NCBI RefSeq assembly: GCF_000179775.1 | Contig: NZ_AEEB01000003.1 | Span: forward strand, 868,001-932,000 | Source: Ahrensia sp. R2A130 | GTDB taxonomy: Bacteria; Pseudomonadota; Alphaproteobacteria; Rhizobiales; Rhizobiaceae | Length of the DNA stretch: 64,000 nucleotides | Direction: 5' to 3' | In this document: positions 3,945 through 33,308 of the stretch, one piece after another | How the letters are laid out: every line of letters begins with the position of its first letter | Numbering within the stretch: position 1 is the first letter of the stretch | Notes under the pieces: generated by a model | What the model was told of the DNA's origin: nothing | Databases searched by the model: none | Seen by the model: the letters and a program-made list of their open reading frames with translations, nothing else | Program-made: the position numbers and the translations under genes

Positions 3945-5616
3945 AACCGCGTGGCCGCTTGGTGTTGCGTTTCGGTGGACGTCCAGCCGATGGTCCATCA
4001 CCGCGAGCCGTCGCTGGCTTAGCACCAGAAGGTCCACCGCGACGGTTGCCACCAGCAGGTTTGGTCCGCTTAGGGCGACCGCCTTCGGAACGCGGTGCTG
4101 CCACTGCATCACCACCTTCACCGCGACCACCCTCCCCGCGGTTTTGCGCCGCGCGACGTGGATGCTTTTTCGAAGGTGGTTTACTACCCGTACCTTCGCC
4201 ACCTGCAGGGCGAGCGTTACCGCGTCGCTTCTTCGGCGCACCACTGGCACCACGATGGCCACCACCGCCGCCACCGCCACGTCCACCGCGTTGCGCCTTT
4301 GTGGGCGCGTCGGGTTCGGACGAATTCATTGAGCCGTCATCGCCAACGACTTCGATATCGAAGTTCATCAGGCGTTGAATATCTCGCAGCATCTTACGTT
4401 CGTCCGGCGCGCAGAAGGCAACTGCCTCGCCATCGCGCCCAGCGCGTGCCGTGCGGCCGATGCGGTGAACGTAGTTTTCCGGCACTTCCGGCAGGTTGAA
4501 ATTGTAAACGTGGCTGACGGCAGGAATGTCGATACCGCGAGCGGCCACATCGGTGGCAACCAGAATACGCACAGCACCTGACTTGAACTCGCGCAGCGCA
4601 CGATCGCGCTGACCCTGGCTTTTGTTGCCGTGGATGGATGCTGCCGCGAAACCCTGCGCGACAAGCTGTTTCATCAGCTTTTCGCAGCCATGCTTCGTGC
4701 GACCGAAGACCAGCGAAAGGTCATCAGGACGCTCCGCCAGCAGCTTCGACAACAGGTTCAGCTTATCCTTAGTAGCGATGTAATGAACGCTCTGGCGCAC
4801 CTTATCAGCTGCCTTACCAGCGCGCGCGACTTCGATACGCTCGGGGTTGGTGAGATAGCTTTTGGAAAGCTCCTCCACCAGTTTTGGCATAGTTGCGGAA
4901 AACAACAGCGTCTGCCGCGGACGGCCAAGCAGCGGTTCGATACGACGCAGCGCGTGGATGAAACCCATATCGAGCATCTGGTCGGCTTCATCGAGCACCA
5001 GATATTTCGCCGTATCCAGCTTCACCGCCTTGCGGTCGACGAGGTCGAGCAGACGCCCCGGCGTCGCGACAAGCACGTCGGTGCCTTTTGCCAGATGGCG
5101 GATTTGCGTGTTGATGTTTTGCCCGCCAACGACTGACGACACCCAAACAGGCGTCTTCTTCACGTAGGCCCGCAGATTATCAGCGATCTGGTTCACCAAC
5201 TCGCGGGTCGGCGCGAGTATGAGCGCACGAACGCTGCGCGGCTGAACCTTATCGCCATCCGACAGCAACCGGTCGATCAAAGGCAAACCAAATGCTGCGG
5301 TCTTGCCGGTGCCCGTTTGGGCAAGGCCCATTACGTCCCGGCCTTCAAGGACGAGCGGGATAGCGTTTGTCTGGATCGGTGTCGGGTCTTTCAGACCCAG
5401 CACGGCCAGTGGCCGCACCACACGCTTGGACAGGCCAAGTGCGGAGAAGGCGTTACTGGCGGAAATGGATGAATCCGGACGGACATTGTTGTCGGAATCA
5501 GATGAAGTGTCGCGCTCGCCATTGGCGAGAGCGTTGTCTTGGGAATTGGTCAAAATCTGTCTTTCGGGACGGCATATCCGTCCGATGGTAGGGAGGGTAC
5601 GCCAACCTTCCGACAT
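3943..5616 (-). CDS. rhlE: DEAD-box ATP-dependent RNA helicase, RhlE-like
   Basis: Up to 557 residues. All DEAD-box motifs are present in order: Q motif with DPTPIQTNAIP, motif I AQTGTGKT, PTRELV, DEADQMLDMGF, LFSATMP, the ATDVAARGID block and HRIGRTARAG. A low-complexity tail (about residues 430-557) rich in Gly, Arg, Lys and Pro is typical of RhlE/CspDA-like helicases and binds RNA non-specifically. The family unwinds structured RNA in ribosome assembly, mRNA decay and cold adaptation. The start is uncertain: the first 20-55 residues are not conserved, the ATG at 5616 has only a poorly spaced AAAGAG, and a TTG about 21 codons later is possible. Confidence 0.92.
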   Translation of the reverse strand: MSEGWRTLPTIGRICRPERQILTNSQDNALANGERDTSSDSDNNVRPDSSISASNAFSALGLSKRVVRPLAVLGLKDPTPIQTNAIPLVLEGRDVMGLAQTGTGKTAAFGLPLIDRLLSDGDKVQPRSVRALILAPTRELVNQIADNLRAYVKKTPVWVSSVVGGQNINTQIRHLAKGTDVLVATPGRLLDLVDRKAVKLDTAKYLVLDEADQMLDMGFIHALRRIEPLLGRPRQTLLFSATMPKLVEELSKSYLTNPERIEVARAGKAADKVRQSVHYIATKDKLNLLSKLLAERPDDLSLVFGRTKHGCEKLMKQLVAQGFAAASIHGNKSQGQRDRALREFKSGAVRILVATDVAARGIDIPAVSHVYNFNLPEVPENYVHRIGRTARAGRDGEAVAFCAPDERKMLRDIQRLMNFDIEVVGDDGSMNSSEPDAPTKAQRGGRGGGGGGGHRGASGAPKKRRGNARPAGGEGTGSKPPSKKHPRRAAQNRGEGGRGEGGDAVAAPRSEGGRPKRTKPAGGNRRGGPSGAKPATARGDGPSAGRPPKRNTKRPRG

Positions 5617-5716
5617 CTCTTTCGATGTCAGGGGGCGACGCTCGCGCAGCCGGTCATGCGGCTTATGCTAACCGCTATGTCGTGTATCGCGCGGCCAAAA
5701 GCAATGGCTGAACGTA

Positions 5717-5752
5717 AAAACGGGTCCGATGCGTTGGCAGCGAACCCGTTTT
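5717..5752 (-). terminator. Hairpin terminator after the L,D-transpeptidase gene
   Basis: AAAACGGGT (5717-5725) and ACCCGTTTT (5744-5752) form a perfect 9-bp stem. Read on the minus strand the right arm continues into TTTTT. It lies about 25 bases past the transpeptidase stop codon. Confidence 0.65.
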
Positions 5753-12766: not shown

Positions 12767-12814
12767 CGTCGGTCTCCTTACCAGACATCCCCGTCCGGAT
12801 TGAGTGAAATCACG

Positions 12815-13025
12815 ATGGCAGGTCTCCTGACTTGCGGGTCACAGCGTATCCGAACCTTCCCAAAATCGCCTCACTCATTGGAGCGGGGTTCATTCAGTGG
12901 TGTTCTTCGGAAACGCTCGCCGCTTACAGTTGCGGGGGCAGTTACGGGTTTGGTGCCTTCTGGCTACGCCTCACCGTATTCCCTTTTCATCCCGCTCAAA
13001 TCTCTTCGAGCAAGAACCATCAAGG
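12815..13025 (-). ncRNA. Cobalamin (AdoCbl) riboswitch
   Basis: Read on the minus strand the region contains the hallmark pieces in order: AAGGGAATACGGTGAGGCG, the CCCGCAACTGTAAGCGGCGA core, CCACTG, TGGGAAGG and the terminal B12 box AAGTCAGGAGACCTGCC (at 12817-12833). Cobalamin riboswitches shut down downstream genes when adenosylcobalamin is plentiful. It precedes the DUF1636/ABC transporter operon. Boundaries are approximate. Confidence 0.95.
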
Positions 13026-13322
13026 GAAGCCTAGGCCGCATCGAAATTCGAGACAACGAAATTCGACAGTCCTCCTCAGTATGATTGAGAATGGGCTCGG
13101 CGAACGCCTGCACCTCGTTTGATGCAGCAGCCATTGAACGAGGTGATGATACTCGGCATCTGGCAAAGAGTTGCTACGTCGTGCCGACAATTGCTCCGAC
13201 CCTTGACCAACGCTTTTCAGCCTATCTAATGTCAACGATAAAAATACGCGCGTAAACTATTGCTTGCGGCTTGGCGCATTGATTAAATTCAACGTGAAGA
13301 AAGTTTAGAAAGGTGCAGGCAG
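13026..13322. other. Divergent intergenic region: promoters of the B12 operon and the lacI-type gene
   Basis: No gene is seen. The stretch must hold the promoter for the riboswitch transcript (minus) and for the LacI-type regulator (plus). It contains the palindrome TACGCGCGTA (13245-13254), which runs into GTAAACT (13252-13258), a motif repeated inverted in front of the polyol transporter genes. Confidence 0.4.
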
Positions 13323-30168: not shown

Positions 30169-31437
30169 TCAGGCCGCGTTGCTCATAAAATCCGCTTCTA
30201 CCGTCGCAGCGATCATGTCTGCCGTGGCCGCGCTCAACGTCCAACCCAAGTGGCCATGGCCGGTGTTGTAGAACACGCCCGGCGCTTTGCCCTTGCCGAC
30301 GCGGGGCATCATGTTGGGCATCATCGGGCGCAGGCCGGCCCATGGCACAACGTGCTCGGTGGAAACACCGGGGAAGTTCTTCCGCACCCAGTTGGTCAGT
30401 GGCACGATGCGACCGGAGCGGATGTCGCGGTCTTCACCGGCAAATTCCGCCGTGCCCGCCACGCGGAAACGGTTGTCGCCCAAGCGCGAGGTCACGATTT
30501 TCGCTTCTTCGTCCAACAGGCTTACGCGGGGCGCGGCTTCCTGCGAGGCCTTATCGTCCAGCATCACGGTGATGGAATAGCCCTTCACGGGATAGACATT
30601 CACGCGGTCGCCTAGCTGGGCGGCGAGATGACGGCTGCCGACACCGGCGCAGATAACCACGTTATCGAACTTGGAAAACTCGCGCTCTTCGCCCAGCAAC
30701 GGGCCGTGTTTGATAAAGATGCCGCCCTCGCGGTGCTGCCGAACCTTGTCGATAGCCGTGCCGAATTTCATCTTCACACCGCGGCGCTTGCAGGCGTCCG
30801 CGAGGCCCATGGAATATTTGTGAACGTCGCCGGTGAAGTCTGACGGGGTAAAGAAGCCGCCGACATAATCGTCGCGCAAGGTGGGTTCGAGCGCAGCGAT
30901 TTCCGCAGCCGTTACCGGCTCGCGCACCAACCCGCCTTTGGCGAGTAGGTCGGTTACCTTCTGGGCAGACTTCAATTCTTTTTCAGATTCGAAAATATGC
31001 AGGATGCCGCGATCTTCCTTATCGAAGTCGATGCTCTCTTCCCCCGCCCATTCGAGCAGGTGTTCGCGGGCGGCAATGGCGAGGCGCGTGGTTTCGATCG
31101 TGTTGGCTTCGTAGCGCGGGATGGCGCGGAGGAATTCGGCCATCCACGAATATTTGTGCCACGACGGACCGGGATGGACGAGCAGCGGCGCGTCCTTCTT
31201 CATCACCCAGCGCATGCCCTTGATGACGGTGCCGAGCTGGTTCCACACGGCGGCGTTGGACGCTGAAAGCTGGCCGCCATTGGCGAACGATGTTTCCATC
31301 GCAGCATAAGGCTGGCGGTCAAAAAGCGTGACGTCGAAGCCGCGCTTGGCCAAGGCGTAAGCGGTGGTGACGCCGGTGATTCCGGCCCCGATGACAGCGA
31401 TGGACTTGGTTTTTGTAGGCGTGATGTGGGCGACCAT
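30169..31437 (-). CDS. dadA: D-amino acid dehydrogenase-type flavoprotein under a glycine riboswitch
   Basis: The 422-residue DAO-family flavoprotein has the FAD motif IAVIGAGITGVTTAYALAKRG at about residues 14-34, FANGGQLSASNAAVW typical of DadA, and a C-terminal GLRPMMPNMMPRVGK with the NTGHGHLGWTLS signature. DadA enzymes oxidise D-amino acids to keto acids and pass electrons to the membrane quinone pool. A tandem glycine riboswitch precedes it, so glycine (giving glyoxylate and ammonia) is a plausible physiological substrate. AGGAAA at the start lies in a small hairpin (31440-31450). Confidence 0.92.
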   Translation of the reverse strand: MVAHITPTKTKSIAVIGAGITGVTTAYALAKRGFDVTLFDRQPYAAMETSFANGGQLSASNAAVWNQLGTVIKGMRWVMKKDAPLLVHPGPSWHKYSWMAEFLRAIPRYEANTIETTRLAIAAREHLLEWAGEESIDFDKEDRGILHIFESEKELKSAQKVTDLLAKGGLVREPVTAAEIAALEPTLRDDYVGGFFTPSDFTGDVHKYSMGLADACKRRGVKMKFGTAIDKVRQHREGGIFIKHGPLLGEEREFSKFDNVVICAGVGSRHLAAQLGDRVNVYPVKGYSITVMLDDKASQEAAPRVSLLDEEAKIVTSRLGDNRFRVAGTAEFAGEDRDIRSGRIVPLTNWVRKNFPGVSTEHVVPWAGLRPMMPNMMPRVGKGKAPGVFYNTGHGHLGWTLSAATADMIAATVEADFMSNAA

Positions 31438-31487: not shown

Positions 31488-31720
31488 CATGACCCCATCT
31501 GTCGTGAAACCTGAGAGTTTGGTTCAGGCAAACAACTTAACAAGCTGCCATGCCGTCACTTTCTCCTTCGGTGGGCAACAGCCATCAGGCCGTCACCACT
31601 CTCCAGATTGTATTCTCCCCCCAAAGCCGAGGGGTTCCCGCAGTCCATGGTGCCTGAGAGTTTCCGGGGCGGTTGCTCCTTCGGCGGCGCCTATGCGCTC
31701 TCTCCTGCGGGTCGTGGCGT
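31488..31720 (-). ncRNA. Tandem glycine riboswitch upstream of dadA
   Basis: Two aptamers can be read on the minus strand. The first (about 31640-31717) has GCAGGAGAGAGCG, GCCGCCGAAGGAGCAACCG and CCGGAAACTCTCAGGCA. The second (about 31490-31607) has CTGGAGAGTGG, CCACCGAAGGAGAAAG and ACCAAACTCTCAGG. The doubled CCGAAGGAG and ACTCTCAGG signatures are diagnostic of the glycine riboswitch, which usually switches genes on when glycine is abundant. It ends about 50 bases before the dadA start. Boundaries are approximate. Confidence 0.93.
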
Positions 31721-31754: not shown

Positions 31755-33212
31755 TTAGCGACCACTTGGGCCAATCCAGGCCACTTTAAACAATCCATCG
31801 GCTTCGCCTTTTAGGGCTTCGCCGACCTGTTCCAAATGCGCACCGGATGAAGCGATATCATCGACGACAAGAACGGTTCCTGATACGGACGCTGTCCGGA
31901 TCAACTTTGGCAGGCGAGAACTCTTGCGCGGGTGCGAAGACCCCTTGCGCGGTGGCGAGCTGACAGCTTCGACGAACTCCGAACCGATGAGCTTGGCAAC
32001 CTGCCGTGCGATGCTCACAGAAAATGGCTCCATATCGACAGTATGACCTCCCGGAACCGGCACCACCTGATCTATGGCAGCTGCACCAACCAAGACTTTG
32101 ACATGGGTTGCGATTTCTTCAGCCACGGAATTGATGAAATTCGCATCCGCTGCCTTTTTCATATGGCGCATAGCCACGATCTGGCTGTCTTTGATACCCG
32201 CCCGCCAAGTGCGAAGCGTGGTGTAGGAACTGCCTTTGCGAGATCGCAACTTCGGCTGCTTGACCAAAGTATCGAGAATAAACCCTGCTGAAGGATTTGG
32301 CGTGAGCGGCGAATTTTCCGCGAAACCGGAATTCGCGATCTGAGCCTGCTGGTTCTGATCCCGGCGTTTGCCGAAATAGACAGCATGCGCCTGCAGATCC
32401 ATAATAACAAAATAGGCACGATCCAACACTTCGCCATCACTGGAATTGGGATAAATGCTGATCGCGAATGGACGAGGTTCGCCGCCGGTTTCTGCAGAGG
32501 GAAGCTCGAATTCCACATTGATGACTGGCTGTCCGGTTTCAATGGCGCGGCGGAGGTGTTTTCTGGACGCGGTCGCCATATCTGGAATGACCTCTTCAAG
32601 GCTTTTCCCGACATGCTCCTCTTTGGTCATGCCGTTCAACGCTGCCAGCGAGTTATTGACGTCCAGATAGATGCCCGATTTGCTAACGAGTCCCAGAGGG
32701 ATTGTAACGGCATCGAACGCCAATGCTCTCGCTTGAAGCAGGATATCCGGCTTCGACAGCTTGTCGATCAAGCCCAGAATATCACCCGCCAACTCGACGT
32801 AACTCTGCATTTCCCAATGTTGTTCGGTCGACAGTTGCTCACGAGGTTGCAGACCCAGAACGATAATAAAAGCTCGCCCTACCATTGTGGTAGGCACTGA
32901 AGCGATAAATGCCGAACGCACTGTCCCGAAGGAAGAGAAGAGTAAATCTAATGTAGATTGATGATCTTCGGACTGAACATCAGAAATATCCAGTATTTGC
33001 CCCTGATCCAACTTAAGAGATGCAAAGGAAATTGGTGAGCTATTATAGCCGTAGGTAAGGCCATCCAGGTCAATTATAGCTAAAGTCCCGTCAGTTTCCA
33101 CTGCCAGAAAACTCAAGTCGCCATTCAAAACAAGTCGTGCAGATTTTACCACACGCGATAACGCACCGTTGTCTTTCAATTCCAAAAGCTGCGCCGCCAC
33201 AACGCACCCCAC
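31755..33212 (-). CDS. GAF-like/PAS sensor fused to a phosphoribosyltransferase-like domain
   Basis: The protein has 485 residues. Residues 1-155 look like a GAF-type sensor fold (weak). Residues 160-275 resemble a PAS domain (GLVSKSGIYLDVNNSLAALN, then GKSLEEVIP and a central beta-sheet ending YFVIMDLQAH). After a linker, residues 335-485 resemble a type I phosphoribosyltransferase of ComF style: VVPVPGGH, RQVAKLIG, HPRKSSRLPKL and the PRPP loop VLVVDDIASSGAHL. The loop deviates from the usual pattern in its last position (His for Thr/Ser), so activity is uncertain. GAGGG precedes a GTG start. It lies between malate synthase G and the glycine riboswitch on the same strand. I know of no described protein with this arrangement. 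Confidence 0.7.
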   Translation of the reverse strand: MGCVVAAQLLELKDNGALSRVVKSARLVLNGDLSFLAVETDGTLAIIDLDGLTYGYNSSPISFASLKLDQGQILDISDVQSEDHQSTLDLLFSSFGTVRSAFIASVPTTMVGRAFIIVLGLQPREQLSTEQHWEMQSYVELAGDILGLIDKLSKPDILLQARALAFDAVTIPLGLVSKSGIYLDVNNSLAALNGMTKEEHVGKSLEEVIPDMATASRKHLRRAIETGQPVINVEFELPSAETGGEPRPFAISIYPNSSDGEVLDRAYFVIMDLQAHAVYFGKRRDQNQQAQIANSGFAENSPLTPNPSAGFILDTLVKQPKLRSRKGSSYTTLRTWRAGIKDSQIVAMRHMKKAADANFINSVAEEIATHVKVLVGAAAIDQVVPVPGGHTVDMEPFSVSIARQVAKLIGSEFVEAVSSPPRKGSSHPRKSSRLPKLIRTASVSGTVLVVDDIASSGAHLEQVGEALKGEADGLFKVAWIGPSGR

Positions 33213-33308
33213 ATATCTGCCCTCAACTAGAGTAACAATGACGTGTATTTATGGAAGCGTTAAATCGAACAGTGGTTAACGTGCCGCATGTAACGTTTAG
33301 ACACGCCG

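Follow-up and report, generated by a model that had tools for sequence, protein, structure and literature searches.

Introduction

Phosphoribosyltransferase (PRTase) domains of the ComFC, RqlH, ShosT and retron types span competence, toxin-antitoxin systems and phage defence, and their chemistry is unsettled. The PRPP loop of type I PRTases usually ends in Thr or Ser. In the regulator PurR, the DNA-binding part is a winged helix, and to our knowledge PurR and PyrR carry neither GAF nor PAS domains. In the account given of Helicobacter ComFC, Thr165 was required for nucleotide binding in vitro, the authors were undecided between catalysis and regulation, and PurR and PyrR of Bacillus are described as PRTase domains serving regulation (PMC9005727). 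DprA-like proteins are described as antitoxins in shosTA and rqlHI (PMC9122126, PMC4670107), and retron PRTases are treated elsewhere (PMC12548924, PMC7824862, PMC9503650). For the solo PRTases of mobile elements, whose role has been called enigmatic, a conserved Arg in common with ComFC is described (PMC5512222).

Gene location and domain organisation

The gene lies at 31755..33212 on the minus strand of the window, the whole stretch of 64,000 nucleotides of Ahrensia sp. R2A130 that was analysed, and is a single ORF of 485 aa with a GTG start. The motif GAGGG at 33220..33224 (minus strand), 7 nt 5' of the GTG, is predicted to be the likely ribosome-binding site. glcB is located on the same strand 96 nt upstream, and on the downstream side 37 nt separate the end of the gene from the first of two glycine aptamers. 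These aptamers (31631-31717 and 31489-31616, minus strand) form a tandem glycine riboswitch between the PRTase stop and a dadA-like gene (30169-31437), which the riboswitch precedes; the names glcB and dadA come from reading the sequence and from the preliminary description, not from a family search. A cobalamin riboswitch is also present in the window (12800-13036, minus strand, 120.7 bits). Near the PRTase gene, the search for repeats, promoters and terminators gave only two-copy repeats or counts close to the shuffled expectation.

Profiles, relatives and the AlphaFold model confirm a predicted order of GAF, PAS and type I PRTase in one protein. The GAF domain covers residues 8-157 (32742..33191, minus strand), where the N-terminal region has a GAF fold, and the PAS domain covers residues 166-274 (32391..32717, minus strand), with a Pfam PAS_4 match of 49.7 bits against a cut-off of 23.1. 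The PRTase domain, together with a presumed hood, occupies residues 307-483 (31764..32294, minus strand); this region stayed below the cut-off when Pfam alone was used, and its profile A4 matched the structure 2yzk with an E value of 6.1e-7, indicating detectable homology to known PRTases. The preliminary description had placed a PAS domain at about residues 160-275 and a PRTase at about 335-485 and had read the protein as a GAF-like/PAS sensor fused to a type I PRTase. This domain order was borne out, and the joining of sensor and PRTase is unusual. The N-terminal profile also matched designed armadillo repeats, over a short helical stretch only (E 0.006 and worse).

In the AlphaFold model, block pLDDT was 87-98 over residues 311-480, except for 69 at residues 421-430 and 83 within 421-440, and two strands and two helices were placed ahead of the PRTase core. 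Domain packing is not readable from the model because pTM is 0.45 and a low-confidence helix lies between PAS and PRTase. When the whole model was compared with the PDB, the GAF part accounted for the list apart from a single PAS row, and PRTases were absent from it, which rules nothing out; the comparison with viral structures returned an orotate PRTase (E 1.3e-3) and a phosphoribosyl transferase (E 5.7e-3), at an rmsd of 8-10 A and with aligned ranges not shown. No DNA-binding family in Pfam or NCBIfam matched the protein, and its one cysteine is residue 3.

The PRPP loop and its terminal histidine

The PRPP loop VLVVDDIASSGAHL spans residues 447-460 (31833..31874, minus strand), and the invariant HP motif is part of SSHPR at residues 425-429 (31926..31940, minus strand), a presumed flexible loop. 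Conservation was read from an alignment of 30 members, which, like the tree, leaves out the solo row L027. Seven of the positions tabulated were invariant in 30/30 members (W336, K352, H427, P428, D451, D452 and G457), the acid pair D451/D452 thus being intact throughout, and the window protein retains every residue that is invariant in the other 29. It carries Ser455, where 28/30 members have Thr.

At the end of the loop the window protein has His459 in place of Thr or Ser. By the DDxxxxGx pattern, His459 lines up with Thr165 of Helicobacter ComFC, and His is found at this position in 28/30 members, phage members included. The residue is no sign of a dead enzyme in the window protein, since it is a hallmark of the subfamily; on this alignment, it marks a subfamily with a predicted altered loop and not a loss particular to the window protein. 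The preliminary description had argued from His instead of Thr/Ser that the domain may bind and not catalyse. The His itself stands, and the argument drawn from it is weakened by its presence in 28/30 relatives and by the retained acid pair.

Relatives and their distribution

At least 11 further sensor-PRTase fusions were found, giving at least 12 fused proteins including that of the window, and unfused PRTase relatives occur in chromosomes and prophages. The predicted sensor-PRTase fusion is a real, recurrent and rare architecture scattered through the alphaproteobacteria. Against genome contigs the whole-protein query gave zero relatives; the PRTase alignment A1 did find relatives, with at least 28 loci, judged to be at least 23 family members and at least 5 ComF proteins, and with 11 loci in viral contigs. 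At least eight fusions were among the 23 family members listed from genome contigs, namely L042, L043 and L044 (483-498 aa, PAS_4 over cut-off) and L045, L046, L049, L050 and L051 (342-435 aa, no PAS match). Three more fusions (L148, L149 and L150) came from genome searches. PAS_4 was over cut-off in 4/11 fused proteins scanned whole, a scan that did not include L149; L148 was called GAF-PAS by length and reading, and Pfam gave no PAS there. The N-terminal parts of the relatives' fusions may be GAF domains, a weak assignment at 10-22% identity to the first row of alignment A5.

Among 397 genomes of the order, the fused query matched five: the window's own, two fusions (one apparently identical with the L042 contig), a solo PRTase and a broken fragment. 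In the taxonomic family around L051 it matched 3/298 genomes. In the window's taxonomic family, a solo PRTase relative was present in 7/394 genomes besides the window's own; the G116 match of that search is doubtful, and the remaining matches touch the sensor part. The class-wide A1 search matched 164/385 genomes at E <= 1e-6, with only the own genome and G606 below 1e-40, and it is not a census because the next best value after these two is 2e-14 and most rows look ComF-sized.

In the tree, the window PRTase groups with the GAF-only fusions L045 and L150 and with the prs-linked solos, at modest support (89/87). Fused and unfused labels switch several times, and constraining the fused proteins together gave p-AU 0.11; this tree does not show the fused proteins to be one clade.

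The literature was searched by title and abstract, with most subscription journals outside its coverage, and no GAF/PAS-PRTase fusion was found; the possibility raised at the outset, that the architecture was already a described family, thus met with no such description. The phage PRTase members look unclassified in PHROGs, as six of six tried (L060, L061, L069, L070, L075 and L077) had no family match at E 1e-3. Other arrangements were also seen. In L078 (2715-3797) a phage-type PRTase is fused to a ParB-like N-terminal part (ParB by PHROGs), L062 (5704-6531) has the same combination by reading alone, and L041 holds two solo family PRTases in tandem (4236-4868 and 5069-5728), followed by a gene reading as ribosomal protein S1.

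SLOG/DprA-like genes beside unfused relatives

A profile of small SLOG proteins, seeded from the four loci noticed first, was run on 50 loci. A match no more than 61 bp from the PRTase was obtained in 8/33 unfused loci (L023, L055, L059, L069, L072, L077, L079 and L146), of which four had seeded the profile and two (L055 and L059) share a genome; several of the 33 duplicate one record or are incomplete. The profile matched 0/12 fused loci and 0/5 ComF loci, and it gave no SLOG/DprA match in the 64-kb window. The contrast between fused and unfused loci (0/12 vs 8/33) is not significant by Fisher's test (p 0.087), and the closeness of the eight matches to the PRTase is the stronger fact. Five of the seven SLOG-type proteins scanned were over the Pfam SLOG or DprA cut-off (L023, L055, L072, L077 and L146), and those of L069 and L079 were just under it. 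In L078 the profile matched a full DprA (Pfam, 249.9 bits) 1.2 kb from the PRTase. In places the SLOG gene beside the eight phage-type PRTases is overlapping or convergent, possibly forming a ShosTA-like two-gene unit. By analogy, this suggests, and does not prove, that fused GAF/PAS domains may replace the partner protein as regulator.

Genomic neighbourhood and origin

The preliminary description had linked the gene to glcB, dadA and glycine and had raised the question of whether the neighbourhood with glcB and dadA is conserved. Neither was borne out, and the link was rejected: glcB had other neighbours in 12/12 same-genus genomes, with no PRTase or dadA match in the stretch read (the L119 contig ends 0.9 kb past glcB), and 14 other same-genus genomes, three of them less than 90% complete, gave no match. 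No conserved operon surrounds the rare GAF/PAS-PRTase gene.

Other relatives do lie beside PRPP, purine or pyrimidine genes. A gene read as PRPP synthetase (prs) adjoins the PRTase in 6/7 solo relatives of the window's taxonomic family, and at the further prs-linked locus L052 prs was confirmed by NCBIfam. L150 is flanked by purQ and purL, perhaps with small ORFs intervening towards purQ; folD and ppa flank L043, and carA adjoins L045. Genes of PRPP, PPi, purine, pyrimidine or folate metabolism thus directly adjoin 4/14 chromosomal placements (window; L042/L043; L150; L044; L045; L046; L047; L049/L051; L050; L148; L149; prs group; L041; L053), where related loci count once and phage-type loci and broken copies are left out. 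The probability of 4/14 is 0.004 at an assumed background of 5% and 0.02 at 8%, for a class named post hoc and neighbours assigned mostly by eye. The proximity of relatives to PRPP/purine-type genes is suggestive, and the window's own copy has no PRPP, PPi, purine, pyrimidine or folate neighbour. Of the C1/glycine/purine connection hinted at earlier, the glycine part fell away and the purine/PRPP part retains some plausibility through the neighbours of other relatives. In two related genomes, a helix-turn-helix gene (L049 2027-2641; L051 6660-7298), LuxR-like by reading and with a sigma-70 family match for L049, lies directly downstream of the GAF-PRTase fusion.

The GC content of the window gene is 51.9% against a median of 58.3%, the lowest among the 41 mechanically picked ORFs of at least 200 aa in the window, and the stretch beside glcB varies among the 12 same-genus genomes read. 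The low GC suggests that the gene may have been acquired, and gain by transfer would be the simplest reading, though not a proven one.

Proposed function and alternative explanations

Profiles and the structural model show a predicted GAF and PAS pair preceding a ComF-related type I PRTase in which the acid pair and the other invariant residues of its subfamily are retained. The preferred reading, on which our confidence is evenly divided, is that the window protein is a soluble one-protein sensor-effector, in which GAF/PAS would control a domain handling PRPP or nucleotides. The GAF and PAS domains may respond to a bound small ligand or to redox state and, probably in dimeric form, would alter how the PRTase uses PRPP or a nucleotide 5'-phosphate. 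The PRTase would be the output, binding or consuming PRPP or a nucleotide to act on an acceptor or partner, and would not be a salvage enzyme. Salvage as the main reading was rejected, the HGPRTase match reaching 13.9 bits where the cut-off is 150; eight further Pribosyltran matches, seven of them over cut-off, are present in the own genome, which removes the need for a salvage role here. More speculatively, GAF/PAS in the fused forms might take the regulatory place of the SLOG/DprA-like protein of the two-gene forms.

A broader reading, offered tentatively, is that PRTases serving as the output of GAF/PAS sensors form a new class of effectors, for signalling or for defence. The regulator would have been exchanged, phage-type loci using a SLOG/DprA-like protein in trans and chromosomes using GAF/PAS in cis, and PRPP or a phosphoribosylated product might be the currency of the switch.

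It is somewhat doubtful that the protein is a toxin-like or defence effector, with a PRTase harmful once released and GAF/PAS restraining it until a signal of stress or infection. The relationship of the PRTase to ComF, PsyrT and ShosT, the SLOG/DprA-like neighbours of phage-type relatives, and the patchy distribution and low GC are in line with this, as are reports of genotoxicity of the RqlH PRTase domain (PMC4670107) and of phage protection by a pair of DprA and PRTase (PMC9122126). However, the PADLOC matches are weak, the window has no DprA/SLOG match and, by eye, no defence gene beside the PRTase gene, and many relatives lie among housekeeping genes.

A non-catalytic regulator that senses PRPP or nucleotides by a PurR/PyrR-like logic and tunes purine/PRPP supply through a partner is unlikely. 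Relatives do flank prs, purL, folD/ppa or carA in 4/14 chromosomal placements, and in L049 and L051 the fusion has a helix-turn-helix gene immediately after it, but that neighbour class was chosen after the loci had been viewed, the members linked to prs lack a sensor, the window copy has no such neighbour, and the window protein matches no DNA-binding family.

A ComF-like DNA-handling protein, to which the ComF profile match would point, as would the resemblance between the ComFC hood (PMC9005727) and the pair of strands and pair of helices modelled ahead of the core, is very improbable given the missing zinc finger, the single Cys at residue 3 and, by eye, no uptake gene beside the PRTase gene. 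A decaying gene without present function is scarcely credible, for despite Ser455 and no close relative having been found, the open frame is full-length with a plausible start site and all residues invariant in the other 29 members are kept.

Under the sensor-effector reading, built-in GAF/PAS domains make sensor ligand, PRPP binding and activity addressable together in a single protein. If the PRTase is indeed the output, PRPP chemistry would join the outputs of GAF/PAS signalling.

Comparison with known systems

One near likeness is to ComFC, likewise a type I PRTase whose PRPP loop contains DD. Over 145 columns the profile of the PRTase family of the window gene aligned to five ComF sequences with an hhalign probability of 98.3 and an E value of 1.7e-14, and the modelled pre-core strands and helices of the window protein resemble the ComFC hood described as strands and a helix (PMC9005727); the match to the Helicobacter ComFC structure 7p0h was at noise level (E 0.37). 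Unlike ComFC, whose loop ends in Thr and which has a zinc finger of four Cys according to the same paper, the window protein has no zinc finger, has His459, and carries GAF/PAS domains in front. The DNA-binding part of PurR has no counterpart in it.

The section of PMC5512222 on solo PRTases of mobile elements describes a category to which the phage relatives of the present family may belong; besides MuF it lists further polyvalent PRTase fusions and, within its text, no GAF or PAS fusion. The likeness to the toxins PsyrT and ShosT is weak by PADLOC (E 1.3e-4 and 2.4e-3, respectively), and profile A4 matched ShosT structures with an E value of 0.0037. Some unfused relatives adjoin SLOG/DprA-like genes in a pairing similar to that of ShosTA/RqlHI. 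In contrast to ShosT/RqlH-PsyrT, the window protein is without a helicase domain and without an adjacent DprA, and has its sensors in cis.
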